Below, piece by piece: positions 5,345 through 28,410 of a stretch of 28,463 nucleotides of DNA; the stretch's first letter is position 1, and the number at the start of each line of letters is the position of its first letter. The notes below the pieces were generated by a model. The model saw nothing but the letters and a program-made list of their open reading frames with translations, was not told where the DNA came from and searched no databases. Where the stretch lies: positions 1 through 28,463 of IMG/VR virus record IMGVR_UViG_3300025120_000393, one strand, 5' to 3'. This DNA comes from a virus. The position numbers and the translations under genes were made by a program.

Positions 5345-6127
5345 ATGACTTCTGTTGCTCCGCGTCCACAAAAAATATCAGATGTAAAGAGTAAGTTATT
5401 AAACCCTGCTCTCACTTCACATTTTATGATTTATATTGGGTTGCCCAGAAAAGAGCAACAATTTAGACAGTTCATGGCACAAAATTCCTTGGTGTTAGAT
5501 CAAGATAGGTTGCAACTATTATGTTGCGAAACATCACTACCAGGATCTTCTCTTGCAACAACGGAATTGAAGAATGATTTTTCTGGAGTAACAGAAAGAC
5601 ATGCATATCGTCGCATCTATCAAGATCGTATTGATCTGACTTTTTATTGTGATGCAGAACAATATATGCCAATCAGATTTTTTGAATCCTGGTTAAAGTT
5701 TATTATGAATGAAGGCACTGGTATTGAAAATCAAAATTATTCATATAAAGTTAAGTATCCTGAAGATTATAAAGGTAATTTGGAAATTACAAAATTTGAA
5801 AAAAATATTCAACAGGGCCTGTTCAAACAGAATGGATCAGTAGTTCCATTGACATATAAATTTGTAAATATATTCCCGGTAGCAATAACATCAATACCAG
5901 TTTCCTATGAAGCATCTTCTCTATTGAAGTGTTCTGTGTCTATGAACTACACAAGATATTACACTAGTCCTGGTAGTGGAAACCCAAATTCATTTGCTGA
6001 TGGTATTAATTTAGATTTGAATTTAGATATTCCACGATACGATAGTAGTTCTGACCTTAATCCATTTGGCCCCGAGGGTCAAGCAGCATTCAATGACACC
6101 TTCAATTTTGGATTCCCAGGGTCATAA
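5345..6127 (+). CDS. 54: gp54-like baseplate tail-tube initiator
   Basis: 260 residues, shorter than T4 gp54 (320). The order of motifs agrees with the tail-tube-like fold: an N-terminal segment, then CCETSLPGSSLATTELKNDF, then YRRIYQDRIDLTFYCDAEQ with FFESWLKFI. The T4 protein has an equivalent path, with ENRLSYETDWNY and LVISFRMD followed by a MQDWV helix. The C terminus is Asp/Ser/Pro-rich. gp54 polymerises on gp48 and nucleates the gp19 tube. The ATG lies only 41 nt from the divergently read gp4 ATG, and I see no well-placed plus-strand promoter in that gap. A gp19-like tube protein is the alternative, made less likely by the baseplate-hub neighbours. Confidence 0.65.
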   Translation: MTSVAPRPQKISDVKSKLLNPALTSHFMIYIGLPRKEQQFRQFMAQNSLVLDQDRLQLLCCETSLPGSSLATTELKNDFSGVTERHAYRRIYQDRIDLTFYCDAEQYMPIRFFESWLKFIMNEGTGIENQNYSYKVKYPEDYKGNLEITKFEKNIQQGLFKQNGSVVPLTYKFVNIFPVAITSIPVSYEASSLLKCSVSMNYTRYYTSPGSGNPNSFADGINLDLNLDIPRYDSSSDLNPFGPEGQAAFNDTFNFGFPGS

Positions 6128-6169: not shown

Positions 6170-6889
6170 ATGCCTTTACCAAAAATTGTAGCTCCAACAT
6201 ATGAACTTGAGTTGCCATCCACTGGAGAAACGATTAAATTTAGACCGTTTCTTGTAAAAGAAGAAAAACTTCTTGTCATTGCTTTAGAGAGTGAGGATAC
6301 AAAACAAATTACGACTGCTATCAAAGCAGTTATTAAGAGTTGTGTCTTAACAAAACAAGTTAAGGTTGAGCATTTGCCAACCTTTGATATTGAATATCTT
6401 TTTCTAAACATCCGTGGCAAGTCTGTTGGTGAGCAATTGGATGTTAATATTGTTTGTCCTGACGATGGATCTACAGAAGTTTCTATTCAAATTGATTTGG
6501 AAGATATCAAAGTCAGTAAAAATGACGAACATACAAACCAAATCAAACTTAATAATGACCTTATGTTAGAAATGAATTATCCTTCACTGGATCAGTTCAT
6601 TAAAAATAACTTTAACTTTAGTGAAAAAAATGCTATGGATCAATCATTTGATCTTGTCGCATCTTGTATGGGTAAAATTTACAATCAAGAAGAGGTTTGG
6701 GCAGCTGATGATTGTAGTAAAAAAGAACTGACTGATTTTTTGGATCAAATGAATTCTGCTCAATTTAAAGAAATTGAAAAGTTTTTTGAAACGATGCCAA
6801 AACTTTCTCATAATGTTGCAGTTAAGAATCCATCTACAGGAGTTGAAAGTGAAGTTGTATTGGAGGGCTTAGCAAGTTTTTTCGCCTAG
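6170..6889 (+). CDS. 26: gp26 baseplate hub/assembly protein
   Basis: 239 residues, a little longer than T4 gp26 (208). The N-terminal blocks LPSTGETIKFRPFLVKEEKLL, with LIALES-type and AIKAVIKSCV helices following, are the pattern I know from the T4 baseplate hub gp26 family. The C-terminal half is helical and ends in EGLASFFA. gp26 is needed for hub assembly together with gp51. The last sense codons are TTT TTC GCC before the TAG at 6887-6889. They form a T TTT TTC slippery heptamer, and a -1 slip would extend the protein by 63 residues through the gp51-like frame to give about 301 residues. This echoes the frameshifted tail-assembly chaperones of other tailed phages such as lambda gpG/gpGT. 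A late promoter lies 27 nt upstream. Confidence 0.75.
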   Translation: MPLPKIVAPTYELELPSTGETIKFRPFLVKEEKLLVIALESEDTKQITTAIKAVIKSCVLTKQVKVEHLPTFDIEYLFLNIRGKSVGEQLDVNIVCPDDGSTEVSIQIDLEDIKVSKNDEHTNQIKLNNDLMLEMNYPSLDQFIKNNFNFSEKNAMDQSFDLVASCMGKIYNQEEVWAADDCSKKELTDFLDQMNSAQFKEIEKFFETMPKLSHNVAVKNPSTGVESEVVLEGLASFFA

Positions 6890-6911
6890 CCCTGATCCAC
6901 ATGGATTTGGG
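6877..6911 (+). promoter_or_regulatory. Probable programmed -1 ribosomal frameshift site (gp26 to gp51)
   Basis: The heptamer T TTT TTC (6877-6883) lies in the correct X XXY YYZ phase for the gp26 frame, one codon before its stop. Six nt further on, a hairpin can form: CCC (6890-6892) with GGG (6909-6911), a U.U mismatch and G.U wobble, then ATCC (6895-6898) with GGAT (6903-6906) and loop ACAT. The -1 frame is open and enters the gp51-like ORF in phase at its ATG (6901). Confidence 0.65.
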
Positions 6912-7074
6912 TAGTTATTATAAAATCAATTTTGCCTTGATGCAATTTCATAAATATAGTTTAACTGAGATTGAAAATCTAATTCCATGGGAAAGAGATA
7001 TCTACGTTGGATTATTGCAGCAACATCTTGAAGAAGAAGAATTAAAACGAAAACAACAAGCATCTAATGGATGA
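6901..7074 (+). CDS. 51: gp51-like baseplate hub assembly protein (small ORF, likely frameshift extension of gp26)
   Basis: 57 residues from ATG 6901, or 63 residues as a -1 extension of gp26 entering at CGC 6883. The sequence DLGSYYKINFALMQFHKYS followed by LTEIENLIPWERDIYVGLLQ matches the short gp51 of cyanophages and has the helical, WxRD-Y pattern common in frameshift domains of tail-assembly chaperones. T4 gp51 is far larger (249), so only a local functional equivalence is claimed. No ribosome binding site is visible before ATG 6901, which favours expression through the frameshift site at 6877-6883. The C terminus is charged (EEEELKRKQQ), and its last 8 nt overlap the start of the next gene at 7067. 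Confidence 0.6.
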   Translation: MDLGSYYKINFALMQFHKYSLTEIENLIPWERDIYVGLLQQHLEEEELKRKQQASNG

Positions 7075-9244
7075 TACTGTAACTACACCAATAAAATCTA
7101 CTACAATATCAACATCTAAAATGATGGGTAGGGATGTTGGTGATACAAATTCTTCCTCACCTGGAAAAGAAAGCAAGATTGCTAAACTTTCAAGAATTTT
7201 AAGGACGACTCGTGTAAAGGTAAATGAGACAGAGAATCAAATAAAAGATATTGACAAGATAGTAAAAATAAATGCTGAAAAAATAACTAGATTAAAAAAT
7301 ATTATTAAGATTCAAAAGAGTACTCTTGCAGAAAATCTTAGTAGTCTCGATCAAAAAGCAGAATTTGCTTCGGTAGAAAAAAGTCTTAATGCTATAATTG
7401 AAACTTTAAGAAAAGAAAAAAAAGCAGAAGATAAAGCTGCAGAAGATGCTAGGAAAAAAGGAGAAAGGAATCGCGCCAAGAATAGAGAAAAGAAGTTAGA
7501 GTCTAGTCTTGGAAAGGGAATTAAACAATTCACTGGAAAAATAATAAAACCTTTCAAAAGTATTTTTGATAAAATATTTGATTTTTTACTCAATGTTTTA
7601 TTGGGAAGAACTGTCATAAAACTAATTGATTGGTTTAGTGATGATGAAAATAAAGAAAAAATAGATAACTTAATTAACTTTGTGAAGGACTGGTGGCCTG
7701 CACTGACTGCTGCTGTTCTTTTATTTGGAACTGGTTTTGGTTCTTTAGCAGCAGGTATCGTAAGTATAGTAGCAGGATTTATTCCTAAAATGATAGGAGT
7801 GATTGCCAAATTGACGATGGTGATTGCAAAAAGTCCTATTGCTCTTCCAGTACTTGCTGCTGCAGCTGCAGGTATTGGGATTTATGGTATAGGGAAAATG
7901 TTAGGTAATGATAAGGTTGCTGAAAATGAAGGAAAGCGGCAGGAGATTACTCGAAAGGGATTGGAAGAGGCACCTAGCACTAAGGATATGAGTGCTGGAG
8001 ACAGAGAGGCACTAGTTCAGGGATCAAGGCAAAGAGATGCAGGTGGTAGCGGATCTCTTAACAATATGCCAAACCAATTTATCGATCCTTTAGGCATCAG
8101 AAATGATCCTACTGGCATGGGTGGAATGCGTGGAATGGGTGGTATGAATAGATTTAATGGTGGAGGAAAAGTACCTGGTAAAGGGCCAAATAAAGATACT
8201 GTTCCTGCGATGTTATCTCCTGGTGAATTTGTGATGAGTAGAGGTGCAGTTGATAAATTTGGTACTGGTATTTTGGCTTCTATGAACTCTATTGGTGGTG
8301 GAAATAATAAACCTAAAATTTCTGATGGAGTAACATATGCATCTGGTGGTGGGATGGTTGGTAATAATAATTATGGTTCGAATTTAAAATTTAAAAGCCC
8401 AATTATGGGATATCCAAATTATGAGAAACCTACTGACGAGGCAGGACAATTCTTCTCAAGAATTTACAAGGCAGCAAAAGAAGCAGGAGATCCATTCCCA
8501 GAAATAGTTGCAGCACAAGCTGTAGAAGAAAGTAATTTTGGAAGATCTCCATTAGCAATGGAAGCAAATAATTTATTTGGCCAAGACGCTCCATCAGATT
8601 ATCCACCATCTCAAACATATAAGTATATTGATCCTATTGAAGGAGAACATACAGCAATTAAATTTAAATCTATTGAAGACTCTGTAAAATATAGAGTTAG
8701 GATATGGAAAGAGTATTATGGAGATGCTAAAACTCCATCTGAGGCAATCACTAATCTTGCAACTGCTGGATATAATCCACATGCCATATATCCAGGAAAA
8801 ATTAATGGTGTTTTACGTGATTATGGTATCGTACCAAATCAACCAAGACCTAATATGAATGATGTTAGGCCTACAAACCAACCAACTTTTGCTAATAGAG
8901 TTGAAGATACTCCAGTTGGTCCAAAAGGTCTCATTCAATCGTTGACTGATTCAGAAGGATTGTCTGGCATTTATATGAATCCGATTAACAAAATATTTGG
9001 CAATCAATCTAAAACCCAACCAAATTTACAAACTCCTGCACAAATATCAAGTTCTCAAACAAAAAAAACTTCTAACATAAAACCTTTGGAAAGAAGTGCT
9101 CCAAAGGTTTCGTTCTTACCATTACCAACATCAAATGACGATACACCTATCGCAGATGCATCTGGTAGAACAACTATTCCTCCGTTCAGTGCAGCGACTC
9201 AGGGATCTCGTTTTAAGAAACAAGTTCTTGGTATGGTGACATAA
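7067..9244 (+). CDS. Tape-measure-like hub protein with glucosaminidase-like domain
   Basis: 725 residues. Residues about 35-160 are Lys/Glu-rich and predicted coiled coil. Residues about 160-280 hold several hydrophobic segments (FDFLLNVLLGRTVIKLIDWF, WWPALTAAVLLFGTG, and an Ala/Gly-rich stretch), as in tape-measure proteins. A Gly/Met/Asn-rich linker leads to GKVPGKGPNKDTVPAMLSPG near 365, a motif frequent in phage tape-measure proteins. Residues about 455-600 look like a FlgJ/AtlA-type glucosaminidase: FFSRIYKAAKEAG, AAQAVEESNFGRS with probable catalytic E488, NNLFG, and SVKYRVRIWKEYYG. The protein would measure or line the tail and cut peptidoglycan during entry. It overlaps gp51 by 8 nt and is followed after 1 nt by the 783-aa gene. 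T4 gp29 is the positional analogue, without convincing sequence similarity that I can see. Confidence 0.65.
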   Translation: MDDTVTTPIKSTTISTSKMMGRDVGDTNSSSPGKESKIAKLSRILRTTRVKVNETENQIKDIDKIVKINAEKITRLKNIIKIQKSTLAENLSSLDQKAEFASVEKSLNAIIETLRKEKKAEDKAAEDARKKGERNRAKNREKKLESSLGKGIKQFTGKIIKPFKSIFDKIFDFLLNVLLGRTVIKLIDWFSDDENKEKIDNLINFVKDWWPALTAAVLLFGTGFGSLAAGIVSIVAGFIPKMIGVIAKLTMVIAKSPIALPVLAAAAAGIGIYGIGKMLGNDKVAENEGKRQEITRKGLEEAPSTKDMSAGDREALVQGSRQRDAGGSGSLNNMPNQFIDPLGIRNDPTGMGGMRGMGGMNRFNGGGKVPGKGPNKDTVPAMLSPGEFVMSRGAVDKFGTGILASMNSIGGGNNKPKISDGVTYASGGGMVGNNNYGSNLKFKSPIMGYPNYEKPTDEAGQFFSRIYKAAKEAGDPFPEIVAAQAVEESNFGRSPLAMEANNLFGQDAPSDYPPSQTYKYIDPIEGEHTAIKFKSIEDSVKYRVRIWKEYYGDAKTPSEAITNLATAGYNPHAIYPGKINGVLRDYGIVPNQPRPNMNDVRPTNQPTFANRVEDTPVGPKGLIQSLTDSEGLSGIYMNPINKIFGNQSKTQPNLQTPAQISSSQTKKTSNIKPLERSAPKVSFLPLPTSNDDTPIADASGRTTIPPFSAATQGSRFKKQVLGMVT

Positions 9245-9245
9245 A

Positions 9246-11597
9246 ATGGCAGTTAACGCAGAAAAACTACTATCCAGAAAAGTGGAGACTCCAAATATAT
9301 CTTCTCCAAAGGGGTCAAAATTTAGATTAAAATCAATTAAGATAAAGGTTGATACTATAAATGATATTTTAAAACAATCTTTAAAATCTAAAACGAAAGC
9401 AAGAAGTTCTGATAGATCAAAGGATGAGAAAGAAACTTCAACAAAAACAGAGAATGAATTAGAGAAACAACAAAAGAAGTTTGGTAAGTTTAAGTTGCCA
9501 AACCCAATTAAAAAATTGAACCCTCTGAATAAGATAACAAATTTTCTATTTAATATTCTTGCTGGGTATGTTGCAGTAAGATTGTTAGACAATTTGCCAA
9601 TGTTGAAGGAATTAATTCCTAAAATAGAGAGTGCCTTTGAGTTTATTGAAGAATGGGGAGGTAAAATTTTCAATGGACTTGTCACTCTGGTAGACGAGGG
9701 ATATAAAATGTATGATGGTTTACGTGATAATGTCAAAGAAATGTTTGGCGAAGATGGCCAGAAAAAATTTGATGAAATATCTAATCACTTAAAGACAGCT
9801 CTTAATTTAGCAATCGTTGCTGCTTTGATTGGAGTGAGAGTTGGAGCTTTTCGTGGTGGAGGAGCAAGAACGGGTGCAAATATAAGACCTAGACCAGGCA
9901 CAGGTGGAAGACCTAGAGTAACCGGTACTGGTGGTGGTAGAGCAGGTAGACCAAATTTACGCAACCCACTCAGACAGAGACCAAGAATAACCTCTGGTGG
10001 TGGTGCAAATAGATTCGGTAGTAGACTGCTTGGTAGAGGTGCTTCAAGAGTTACTATTGGTGCTTCAGGTCAACTTGGATCAAGAGCAGGTTTAAGAATT
10101 CTCAAAAACTTTGTCAGTCCAATTGTTAAAAGAATACCAATCATTGGTGGTCTAATTGACTTTGCACTAAACTACTTTGTTTTTAAAGAACCTATCGGAA
10201 GAGCAGCATTTGCGGCAATTGGTGCTACAATTTTTGGTGCTCTTGGAGCAACAGTCGGATCTATTGTTCCATTTGGAGGAACTTTTATTGGTGGTGTTCT
10301 TGGTGGTCTTGGCGGAGATCTTGCCGGTAAATGGTTATATGATGCATTCTTCTCTAAAAAGAAACCAATAAAAGTTCAAGATGATTCTGAATTAAAAGAC
10401 AAACTACCTAGATCTGAAATAACATCAGCAGATGAAAAAGATCTCTTTAAAAGATTGATTGCTGCTGAGTCAAGTGGGGAAGGTGAACTTGGAATGGCAT
10501 TGGTTGCTCGTTCTGTATTAAATCGTGTTGGTTTAATACAATCTGGTGAAGCTTCAACTGGAACTTTCCAGGCTAATGATAAGACTTTGACTGGTGTTAT
10601 TATGGGAAAAAATCAATACCAACCAGTAACTGATGGAAGCATTAATGATAAATTTGAACCCAGGACATTAGAAAAATCTGAGAATGCAATAAAACTTGCT
10701 CAAGATATTGATAAGTTGAAGGCAATGTTAAAAACTGAAAAAATAAGTGACTCTGATATTTCCAAACTTATGGCATCAACTGGATTCAGAACAGGGGGTG
10801 CCTTTGTTGACCAATCGCAAAATGTCAATGTTGTTCAATACAAAAATCATTATTTTAATACTGCAGGAAATCCAACTCTATCTTATGCTAGAGCAAATAG
10901 ACCAAGTATACCAAAAAATGATATTGATGATGGTCAGCGAGCACTTAGGTCTTCTAGAATTGATAGTGAAGGAAGTAAAATTGCAGGTGAACTTGGAAGA
11001 TTTATGAAAAAGAAAGGAGTAGTTCCTGGAAGTATTCACCGACACCCGGAGCATCCTCCATATAGTTTAACGCAAGGTCACTCTCCTGGTTCACTTCACT
11101 ATCAAGGAAGAGCAATTGATTTAGGAGGGTACTCTGGTGAGCAGAGGCCTATTTTAGATGCTGTTACGGAGTTTAATAAGTTAAAGGGAATATCACCAGT
11201 ACAACTTCTTCATGCAGCTAATGATCCGAGAGGTGAACATGATGATCATGTTCATGTGGCATATAAAAAAGGTGGACTTACAAAGAGTGGTGCCCATATG
11301 GCAACACTGGGTGAGGAAGGGAGAGAATTTGTTATTGATGCAGATTCAACCAATGCACTTGAAGGAAAATTGCCTGGATTCTTAAGTGCAATTAATAAAG
11401 CAGATGGAAAGGCTGCTATTGACATATTAAATGAATATACATCCTATGATGATAGGTCAGAACAAACAATTATAATTCCTCCGCCTCCACAACAAGCAGG
11501 ATATGGTGGTGATTCAACTAAAAAAGCAGTCCCTGTTCTAATTTCTGATTCGGAAATTCTTTCTAGTCATTTTGATATTTTATATCAAGGTGCGTAA
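9246..11597 (+). CDS. Tape-measure-like hub protein with SleB-like hydrolase and M15-like peptidase domains
   Basis: 783 residues. After a charged N terminus, hydrophobic segments occur near 95-120, 180-200 and 292-365 (Gly/Ala-rich, FGALGATVGSIVPFGGTFIG), separated by an Arg/Gly-rich stretch (about 200-275). Residues about 396-490 resemble SleB/Hydrolase_2 cell-wall hydrolases: LFKRLIAAESSGEGELGMAL with candidate E408, VARSVLNR, GVI and NQYQPV. Residues about 580-680 resemble M15-type D,D-peptidases: GSLHYQGRAIDLG gives the H618 and D625 ligands, and HDDHVHVAY gives H668/H670. The C-terminal GEEGREFVIDADS motif is common in tape-measure proteins. Two wall-cleaving activities of different bond types are therefore predicted. 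It sits between the glucosaminidase-like gene and gp27 in one plus-strand run. Confidence 0.65.
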   Translation: MAVNAEKLLSRKVETPNISSPKGSKFRLKSIKIKVDTINDILKQSLKSKTKARSSDRSKDEKETSTKTENELEKQQKKFGKFKLPNPIKKLNPLNKITNFLFNILAGYVAVRLLDNLPMLKELIPKIESAFEFIEEWGGKIFNGLVTLVDEGYKMYDGLRDNVKEMFGEDGQKKFDEISNHLKTALNLAIVAALIGVRVGAFRGGGARTGANIRPRPGTGGRPRVTGTGGGRAGRPNLRNPLRQRPRITSGGGANRFGSRLLGRGASRVTIGASGQLGSRAGLRILKNFVSPIVKRIPIIGGLIDFALNYFVFKEPIGRAAFAAIGATIFGALGATVGSIVPFGGTFIGGVLGGLGGDLAGKWLYDAFFSKKKPIKVQDDSELKDKLPRSEITSADEKDLFKRLIAAESSGEGELGMALVARSVLNRVGLIQSGEASTGTFQANDKTLTGVIMGKNQYQPVTDGSINDKFEPRTLEKSENAIKLAQDIDKLKAMLKTEKISDSDISKLMASTGFRTGGAFVDQSQNVNVVQYKNHYFNTAGNPTLSYARANRPSIPKNDIDDGQRALRSSRIDSEGSKIAGELGRFMKKKGVVPGSIHRHPEHPPYSLTQGHSPGSLHYQGRAIDLGGYSGEQRPILDAVTEFNKLKGISPVQLLHAANDPRGEHDDHVHVAYKKGGLTKSGAHMATLGEEGREFVIDADSTNALEGKLPGFLSAINKADGKAAIDILNEYTSYDDRSEQTIIIPPPPQQAGYGGDSTKKAVPVLISDSEILSSHFDILYQGA

Positions 11598-19574: not shown

Positions 19575-19658
19575 GCGAGTATGGCGGAATCGGTAGACGC
19601 ACCAGACTTAAAATCTGTTGAGAGCAATCTCGTGGGAGTTCAAGTCTCCCTACTCGCA
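19575..19658 (+). tRNA. tRNA-Leu (anticodon TAA)
   Basis: 84 nt with full cloverleaf. Acceptor arm GCGAGTA (19575-19581) pairs with TACTCGC (19651-19657), followed by discriminator A and no encoded CCA. The anticodon loop CTTAAAA contains TAA, reading UUA. A long variable arm (GAGAGCAATCTC) and a T-arm GGGAG-TTCAAGT-CTCCC are class II features. UUA codons are frequent in AT-rich phage genes, so it may supplement the host supply during late translation. Confidence 0.95.
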
Positions 19659-19675
19659 CTTCTAAATAAACGAAA

Positions 19676-26157: not shown

Positions 26158-28410
26158 ATGACGACTAAAATATGGAATGATGTACCTACAGGTTTAGATC
26201 TAAACGGTCCTATACTATCCATTGTTACTGACACATTTACACATGCTGTTGGTGACACTGGAACACTGCAGACCAATGTTTGTGCTTCAGCACCATCTGC
26301 AGGGTCTGGTACAAAAACTATAGCATTTACTGGCATTGCAACTGCGACTTTTCCTGCAGGTTCTGATTCAAGTTTTGATGGAACAGTTGAATATCAATGG
26401 TATAAATTATCTCTTAATGGTGTAGAAACAAAATTAGGACCTTCAACAAAATATAGTGGAGAAACTAGTTCTACTTTAGAAATAACTTATGTAGAAAGTC
26501 CTACTCAAAATGGCGAACAATATTTTGTTGAGGCAGATTATAAACCGAGAGCATATAGTGAAAGTCCAAATTCTGTTGGACTTGGAAGATCAACTCCTAA
26601 TGCTATTAATGAACCTCTCAGAACAACTTCTATAGCTTTAAATGTTCTCCCTACTTTAGAAATAACAGCAGGGGTATCTCCTGTAATAGTTACTACAGAT
26701 AATGAAGCAACATTTACTGTTAGAGCTAATATGGATTCTGGGAATAATACTTCCTCAGATTCTAAAATAACATATCAATGGTGCATTGATGGAGATTGTG
26801 ATATTTCTGATGGTGTAAGAGAGACAAAATCTCTTGCCAATCAAATAGTAAAGGAGTATTTTCACACAGGAACTACTCAGACACTAGTTATTCCAGAAGA
26901 TGCTACCGAAGTAAGAATTAAAGTTGAAACTGGTGCTGGAGGTGCTGGAGGATCTGATTCAAATGGTATTGGTGGAGATGGTGGTCTTGGTAGATCAGGA
27001 ATTTTTTCTCTTGCAGATGGAGGTAGAACACTAACTATTGATGTTGGGGCCCGTGGAAGTACCGGAGAATCATCAGTCAAAGGAACTGGTGGAGGTGCCG
27101 GAGGAACTGGAGGTCCAAAAGGTGCCCAACGTGGAGGAAACTCTGGATCACAAGGTACTTCTGGTGCAGGAGGAGGCGGATCTGATGGAGTTTATATTCA
27201 AGATTCTATCTCAGACACATATATTATTGCATCTGGTGGCGGTGGTGGTGGTGGAGGAGGAAGCCTAAATCGAAACAGTTTGACCTCTTCCACTGCTAAC
27301 GCAAAAGAATTCCAAAGTATCTCTGGTGGATTGACCGGATTTAATAATGCCACTGCTGGCGCAGATAGAGGAAATGTTAATGGAGGCGGCGGCGGTGGTG
27401 GTGCAAATGGATACCGTGCAGGTGTAGGTGGAGCTGCTGGTACAGATAATCCTCCGCCACCACCACCACCGCCACCACCGTATGTGCCACCACCGTATGT
27501 GGCACCATACTACCCCCCATACTATCCCCCATACTATCCCCCGTCTGATCCACCCCCACCGCCACGGAGAGGTAGAAGGAGTGGTAGATATATTGCACCA
27601 CCATATGTGGCACCACCGTATGTGCCACCCCCACCGGACCGGAGAGGTAGAAGGTCTAATAGATATAACCCTCCACCACCAGATAGGCGTCGGAGACGGA
27701 GACGGAGAAGAAGAGGTGGAGACTGTTTCACTGGAGAAACAATGGTTCTGATGAGGAATCCATGGGTTCTCAGTGGAGATGGAAAAGGAGCTTTCTATGA
27801 AAAACCAATTGCTGAAATCGTTGTTGGCGAGTATGTTTCAAACATAAACAAAACTGAATCAAATGAAGTTGTGTTTATTGAAAAATATGGTAAAAATGTT
27901 TCAAGTCAAGACTGGATTTACTCTCCAAATCCTGATATTGAACCATTTGCAACTGTAAATCACATGCTTAAAAGGGGTGATGAGTGGGTATCAGTTAAAA
28001 CTGACTTATATCCTTGGTTAGATGTTTGCCAAAAACTTGAAAATTCTCTTGTCAAAGAATTGAAAAACAAAGAAGTTTACAATTTGTGGGTATCTGGAGA
28101 CGGAACCTATCGTGTAAATGGATATGGAACACATTCTATCATGTTTGATGGTGGATTTATGAGAAATGCTTATGATCAAAAAATCATAAAGTATAGTGAT
28201 GTTTATAAACTTATGCATGAGTTTACAGGACCTAAATTTAAAATCCTTCATGGATCTTTCCTTGTAAATAGAATATTTGGTAAAATCAATTTCCCAATTG
28301 CAAACAAATTATTTGCATATATCTTATTAGCTAATGATCAAACACTTCGTAAAAAACTTGTATTGATTCTAATGAAAGTTCTTACAAAAATTGGAGGATT
28401 ATTAAAATGA
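26158..28410 (+). CDS. Tail adhesin-like protein with C-terminal Hint self-processing domain
   Basis: 750 residues in clear modules. Residues 1-235 hold two Ig-like units with YQW signatures near 78 and 206. About 236-430 is a Gly-rich domain opening with TLVIPEDATEVRIKVETGAG, typical of phage fibre tips. About 431-522 is a Pro/Tyr-rich linker ending in ten Arg. From Cys523 (CFTGETMVLM) a Hint domain follows: block A Cys, PIAEIVVGEYVSNI, the T599-V-N-H602 motif in FATVNHMLKR, and a closing YNLWVSGDGTYRVNGYGTHS at 640-660. The usual terminal Asn is Ser660, so full splicing is unlikely, but an N-S acyl shift with cleavage before Cys523 is possible, as in hedgehog and BIL-type proteins. About 90 residues follow, ending in a cationic amphipathic helix. 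The stop overlaps the next ATG (ATGA). Confidence 0.7.
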   Translation: MTTKIWNDVPTGLDLNGPILSIVTDTFTHAVGDTGTLQTNVCASAPSAGSGTKTIAFTGIATATFPAGSDSSFDGTVEYQWYKLSLNGVETKLGPSTKYSGETSSTLEITYVESPTQNGEQYFVEADYKPRAYSESPNSVGLGRSTPNAINEPLRTTSIALNVLPTLEITAGVSPVIVTTDNEATFTVRANMDSGNNTSSDSKITYQWCIDGDCDISDGVRETKSLANQIVKEYFHTGTTQTLVIPEDATEVRIKVETGAGGAGGSDSNGIGGDGGLGRSGIFSLADGGRTLTIDVGARGSTGESSVKGTGGGAGGTGGPKGAQRGGNSGSQGTSGAGGGGSDGVYIQDSISDTYIIASGGGGGGGGGSLNRNSLTSSTANAKEFQSISGGLTGFNNATAGADRGNVNGGGGGGGANGYRAGVGGAAGTDNPPPPPPPPPPYVPPPYVAPYYPPYYPPYYPPSDPPPPPRRGRRSGRYIAPPYVAPPYVPPPPDRRGRRSNRYNPPPPDRRRRRRRRRRGGDCFTGETMVLMRNPWVLSGDGKGAFYEKPIAEIVVGEYVSNINKTESNEVVFIEKYGKNVSSQDWIYSPNPDIEPFATVNHMLKRGDEWVSVKTDLYPWLDVCQKLENSLVKELKNKEVYNLWVSGDGTYRVNGYGTHSIMFDGGFMRNAYDQKIIKYSDVYKLMHEFTGPKFKILHGSFLVNRIFGKINFPIANKLFAYILLANDQTLRKKLVLILMKVLTKIGGLLK
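27448..27720 (+). repeat. Low-complexity Pro/Tyr/Arg-coding tract
   Basis: CCN-rich and CGG/AGA-rich codon runs encode ten Pro, three YPP repeats from a 12-bp unit (TAYTATCCCCCA), repeated APPYV segments, RRGRRS twice, and a run of ten Arg just before GGD and Cys523. Base composition is much richer in G+C than the surrounding genes. Confidence 0.85.

Follow-up and report, generated by a model that had tools for sequence, protein, structure and literature searches.

A conserved -1 frameshift site very probably joins gp26 and the gp51-like frame of a marine T4-like phage into one tail assembly chaperone gene

In the 28,463-nucleotide stretch of viral DNA analyzed here (IMG/VR record IMGVR_UViG_3300025120_000393; hereafter the window), gp26 and the gp51-like open reading frame that follows it very probably constitute one frameshifted chaperone gene with a short and a long product, a reading to which we assign a probability of about 0.93. 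Judged from the nucleotide sequence, the gene almost certainly makes its two tail-chaperone forms through a -1 slip at TTTTTTC near the end of gp26. A preliminary description of this DNA had proposed that a programmed -1 frameshift joins the two genes, and the proposal is supported by a heptamer that is conserved together with its phase in 157 of 158 distinct relatives and by the open -1 frame. Frameshifted tail chaperones are a known kind of gene, and the finding, though real, is for the most part not new. The elements of the junction are as follows.

6170–6889, plus strand: gp26, the probable short tail assembly chaperone (TAC-N), read in the 0 frame, 239 residues.
6877–6883, plus strand: slippery heptamer T_TTT_TTC, in phase; among distinct relatives that do not belong to the T4 clade, 157 of 158 have T_TTT_TTN.
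6887–6889, plus strand: 0-frame stop TAG, one codon past the heptamer; in each of the 157 relatives this distance is zero or one codon.
6883–7074, plus strand: -1 frame extension, the gp51-like, probable TAC-C domain, 63 residues after the slip; matches phrog_634 (9.6e-27).
6901–7074, plus strand: gp51 as conventionally annotated from an ATG start, 57 residues.

The heptamer lies in the context AGT TTT TTC GCC TAG, in the phase X_XXY_YYZ, and the coordinates and phase first given for it, one codon before the gp26 stop, were borne out. By itself it is weak evidence and not striking, because the window is A/T-rich and contains eight in-phase T_TTT_TTN sites among its 17 larger open reading frames, although only the site at 6877–6883 lies near a stop. 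Conservation in relatives, however, places it far beyond chance. A first scan of viral contigs yielded 80 relatives with gp26 identities of 68–87%, all 80 of which have TTT TTC, a preceding codon ending in T, and a stop one codon later. With further queries and phage records added, the collection comprised 184 junctions; outside the T4 clade, T_TTT_TTN precedes the stop by at most one codon in 177 of 178 of these, the exception being Vibrio phage K447, and the same arrangement holds for 157 of 158 distinct loci once duplicates are removed. These 158 loci span Kyanoviridae, Methylophilales and marine groups, and Aeromonas 65-like, KVP40-like, Menderavirus and Pootjesviridae phages. The contig scans found only six contigs with T4 gp26 as the query, two with a KVP40-like query and five with Aeromonas 65. 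The heptamer is also present in five further records (Aeromonas Ahp1, Pseudomonas pf16, Vibrio Bakedbeans, Stenotrophomonas BUCT608 and Prochlorococcus P-SSM4). The bare heptamer is common in the window, and a chance poly-T run is nonetheless ruled out by this conservation and by codon usage.

The same codons specify a Ser-Phe-Phe protein end, and the heptamer might be kept for that end only, with the downstream hairpin and the open frame being incidental. The C-terminal Phe-Phe is indeed conserved as protein, T4 gp26 included. The 167 Phe-Phe pairs found elsewhere in these genes, however, are encoded as TTC TTT 109 times, TTT TTT 50 times, TTT TTC six times and TTC TTC twice, and gene-wide codon usage predicts T_TTT_TTC at about 12% (0.12) of Ser-Phe-Phe sites, yet the junction site is essentially invariant. 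The T4 clade serves as a negative control: gp26 there retains the Phe-Phe residues without any T_TTT_TTN, the pair in T4 itself being TTC TTT, and gp51 is a separate, full-length gene. Given this codon choice, the protein motif alone does not account for the heptamer, and we consider the explanation extremely unlikely.

Following a -1 slip, the frame would read RLALIH-MDLGSYYKINFALMQFHKYSLTEIENLIPWERDIYVGLLQQHLEEEELKRKQQASNG (MDLGSYY...) and end at the stop at 7072–7074, so that 238 residues from gp26 and 63 from the extension give a computed fusion of 301 residues, as the preliminary description had estimated. Its account of an open -1 frame that enters the gp51-like frame also holds in the window. 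When the relatives were examined for loss of the heptamer and for -1 stops in the interval equivalent to 6883–6901, heptamer and phase proved to be kept in 157 of 158. The 157 distinct loci that have the heptamer all have an open -1 frame, and the extension is conserved. The extension matches the C-terminal part of phrog_150 (3.4e-05) in addition to phrog_634, and a profile of it matches T4 gp51 (1.3e-06) and not T4 gp26.

Public records annotate gp51 apart from gp26, and the conventional gene could be translated on its own from the ATG at 6901 by reinitiation or translational coupling, with the hairpin acting as a start-site control element. An ATG is kept at or near the gp51 position of the early -1 frame in 98 of 105 cyanophage-type loci, as it is in the window, and the stop and an ATG overlap in Menderavirus, KVP40-like and Rhizobium phages. 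Against such a separate gene, 49 of the 157 distinct loci show no ATG among the opening 16 codons of the -1 frame, and 31 of the 157 have neither ATG nor GTG nor TTG there; the -1 frame and the LAL.H residues that precede the usual gp51 ATG are conserved all the same. The coupling model also gives the invariant heptamer codons no role, and T4 gp51 is itself a fused two-domain protein. No Shine–Dalgarno sequence was found before the ATG at 6901; the lack of a ribosome binding site had been offered earlier as an argument for fusion, and the absence is confirmed but is uninformative, because gp26 and several other genes of the window have none either. The loss of the ATG in 49 relatives is strong evidence where the missing binding site is weak. 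With about a third of distinct relatives lacking an ATG, an independent gp51 with its own start is disfavored, and we regard a separate coupled gene as unlikely; the reading frame at 6901–7074 is probably not an independent gene. Since most loci of the cyanophage group keep the ATG, a short gp51 could still be made there independently as a minor product. In Vibrio phage K447, a distant relative, the gp26 homologue (locus L086, 2560–2860) has CTT TTC AAG TAA TGG, without the heptamer and with the stop overlapping an ATG in the next frame; this phage may have switched from frameshifting to coupling.

The heptamer is flanked on both sides by further candidate signals.

6862–6867, plus strand: internal Shine–Dalgarno-like GGAGGG, a putative stimulator, ending 9 nt before the heptamer.
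6889–6912, plus strand: downstream stem-loop, minimum free energy -12.5 kcal/mol; in the conserved core, 6894–6898 pairs with 6903–6907.

The Shine–Dalgarno-like element had been missed in the preliminary description. Across 105 loci, its position is the most complementary to the anti-Shine–Dalgarno sequence of the 180 nt examined, with an 8-mer mean of -6.9 kcal/mol versus a mean of +0.45 (sd 1.95). The codon GAG is used at the element in 78 of 105 loci (74%) versus 786 of 2548 occurrences (31%) elsewhere, and GGG in 27 of 105 (26%) versus 29 of 533 (5%), a skew indicating that the element is conserved by synonymous codon choice. The stem-loop begins about 6 nt downstream of the heptamer, where a hairpin had been described, and the segment 6877–6930 has a z score of -2.2. 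In the cyanophage group, the most stable 34 nt between -240 and +120 begin 3 nt after the heptamer, with a mean stability of -8.3 versus -3.1 kcal/mol. Of the stem, the five inner pairs are formed in 85% of cells across 79 distinct sequences, and two-sided changes occur at all five core pairs, in 45 cells compared with 11.3 (sd 3.9) in shuffles and 3–14 in slid controls. Conservation is confined to these five inner pairs and does not extend to the outer CCC/GGG pairs that the hairpin has in the window. Phages of the Methylophilales-type group have only a weak downstream structure (mean z of -0.44).

Runs of eight T can provoke transcriptional slippage, and the extension could be reached through slippage of RNA polymerase on the T run. 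The Methylophilales-type group does have a run of eight T. In the window and nearly all cyanophages, however, the run is exactly six T followed by an invariant C, and the phase, the Shine–Dalgarno-like element and the covarying stem fit slippage by the ribosome and favor it over slippage by the polymerase, which we consider highly improbable.

The gp26 protein of the window matches the Pfam family T4_baseplate (PF12322, 6.7e-76) and phrog_150 (6.2e-79). We modeled it with AF2 (pLDDT of 87), and VIA matched residues 1–96 to 3fgx (Z of 8.1), the HK97 tail assembly chaperone 2ob9 (Z of 7.9) and YqbN 3klu (Z of 7.4), the next row scoring 4.9. The HK97 match, with a Z just under 8, covers residues 1–86, the N-terminal third only. 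A Foldseek search of the PDB with the model found nothing at E ≤ 0.001, and searching the PDB by sequence yielded no credible hit. The resemblance of the modeled fold to the HK97 chaperone is suggestive, not proof. The short product is probably a tail assembly chaperone, TAC-N, and the fusion TAC-NC.

5345–6127, plus strand: tail-tube-like gene upstream of gp26; matches phrog_45 (tail tube, 9.6e-32).
7067–9244, plus strand: tape-measure-like gene with a glucosaminidase domain (PF01832, 2.9e-13), downstream.

The order of tail tube, chaperone and tape measure is that of frameshifted tail assembly chaperones, and the placement of the junction just before the tape-measure genes agrees with what was first described; tape-measure-like frames lie downstream of it and a tail-tube-like frame upstream. 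The tape-measure identity is putative, the downstream frames having partial matches to tape-measure PHROGs (best 3.5e-08 for the gene at 7067–9244). That gene shares its first 8 nt with the -1 frame. Two tandem tape-measure-like frames in fact lie directly 3′ of the chaperone (7067–11597), both carrying a cell-wall hydrolase-like domain (glucosaminidase PF01832 and, weakly, Hydrolase_2) as well as hydrophobic segments. Elsewhere in the window, a tRNA-Leu (TAA) gene lies between structural genes at 19575–19659, and a large Gly/Pro-rich frame at 26158–28410, a putative fiber, has an end segment (CFTGETMV...) that by eye resembles a Hint/intein-type domain, with no match in a Pfam search.

From these features we infer slippage at a rate at which most ribosomes would still terminate at the TAG at 6887 and release the 239-residue TAC-N. 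A fraction would be paused by the Shine–Dalgarno-like GGAGGG behind and the stem-loop ahead, and would slip by -1 on T_TTT_TTC, the two Phe-tRNAs re-pairing from TTT TTC to TTT TTT. The slipped ribosomes would then read the gp51 frame and complete the 301-residue TAC-NC. As with gpG/gpGT in lambda, the short form would be expected to coat the tape-measure protein and the extension to bring in tail-tube subunits.

T4 gp26 and gp51 are known as hub assembly chaperones, and T4 is said to encode TAC-N and TAC-NC as the separate genes 26 and 51, while frameshifting is reportedly conserved in several T4-like groups. Both T4 proteins match PF12322 (8.8e-64 for gp26 and 3.9e-52 for gp51). T4 gp51 matches phrog_150 over the whole length (2.6e-84), and its C-terminal part matches phrog_634 (1.2e-23), the cyanophage gp51 family; by these matches it is a gp26-like domain and a gp51 domain in one frame, and cyanophage gp51 corresponds to its C-terminal part only. 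The preliminary description was right that T4-like gp26 and gp51 are normally annotated separately, as public records do, but T4 gp51 holds a gp26-like N-terminal domain of its own. T4 gp51 thus corresponds to the long form and T4 gp26 to the short form, as separate paralogous genes. A profile of the frameshifted cyanophage fusions matches T4 gp26 (1.3e-16) and T4 gp51 (8.6e-11), whereas shuffles reach at best 0.14, and it also matches the gp26 and gp51 relatives of phages KP15 and Konradin; the extension-only profile matches gp51 proteins only. In a midpoint-rooted tree, T4-clade gp26 and gp51 group together, apart from all single-gene phages (support of 100/99), which is consistent with a duplication in the T4 lineage under that rooting. 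Klebsiella phage KP15 (locus L187, 1501–2795) also has separate genes for the two proteins, arranged in tandem on a single strand with gp51 first; those of T4 are divergent. In the GenBank record of Acinetobacter phage Konradin, gp26 as well as gp51 is already called "tape measure protein assembly chaperone".

The annotation "baseplate hub assembly catalyst gp51", carried by hundreds of cyanophage genomes, would be corrected to the tail end of a frameshifted chaperone. Such a chaperone would also account for the short cyanophage gp51, which is only ~20% as long as other gp51 proteins such as that of T4 in the report of Sullivan et al. (2010), where frameshifting is not mentioned. A literature search on frameshifting in ribosome profiling of cyanophages turned up no relevant work. 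Possible additions to what is known are the Shine–Dalgarno-like element, the covarying stem, the codon-usage control, the absence of a gp51 start codon from many relatives and the occurrence in several groups other than cyanophages.

Among known systems, the closest is that of the T4-like phages themselves, for which the TAC genes have been identified (Vladimirov, Gautam and Davidson 2022, Virology 566:9–15; reference via PMC10885494); the gp26/gp51 frameshift is therefore not a new idea for these phages, as it had first seemed. PMC12846349, citing this work, refers to poly-T slippery signals in the TAC-N genes of T4-like phages, and the gene family PF12322 and a poly-T slippery site near the TAC-N end are common to those genes and the window. 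Independent evidence from codon usage, RNA covariation and fold backs the proposal made in 2022 for the T4 tail chaperones, which had long been missing. The TAC frameshift of the Vandenendeviridae and Andersonviridae, as given for phage Adele in PMC12846349, uses the motif GTTTTT and belongs to different phage families. Lambda encodes a short chaperone, gpG, and a -1 frameshifted long form, gpGT, between its tail-tube and tape-measure genes (PMC5009743). The window likewise has a short form and a long -1 frame between tail-tube-like and tape-measure-like genes, although we found no sequence relationship to gpG/gpGT and its phage is contractile-tailed and T4-like. The slippery site of lambda is G_GGA_AAG.

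The layout of the signals is that of dnaX, the -1 frameshift cassette of Escherichia coli, which comprises a Shine–Dalgarno-like sequence ~10 nt upstream, a slippery heptamer and a downstream stem-loop. The window has GGAGGG 9 nt upstream, the heptamer and a downstream stem-loop, with stimulation by the two flanking elements being putative; dnaX differs in its heptamer, A_AAA_AAG, and in that its second product is shorter, not longer. T4 differs from the window in having gp26 and gp51 as two genes on opposite strands without a heptamer. We lean slightly toward the view that the marine T4-like gp26/gp51 site is a dnaX-type cassette whose internal Shine–Dalgarno and covarying stem tune a fixed ratio of short to long form, and that the 26/51 pair of T4 came from a duplication of this frameshifting gene, control of the ratio passing from slippage to two separately expressed genes.
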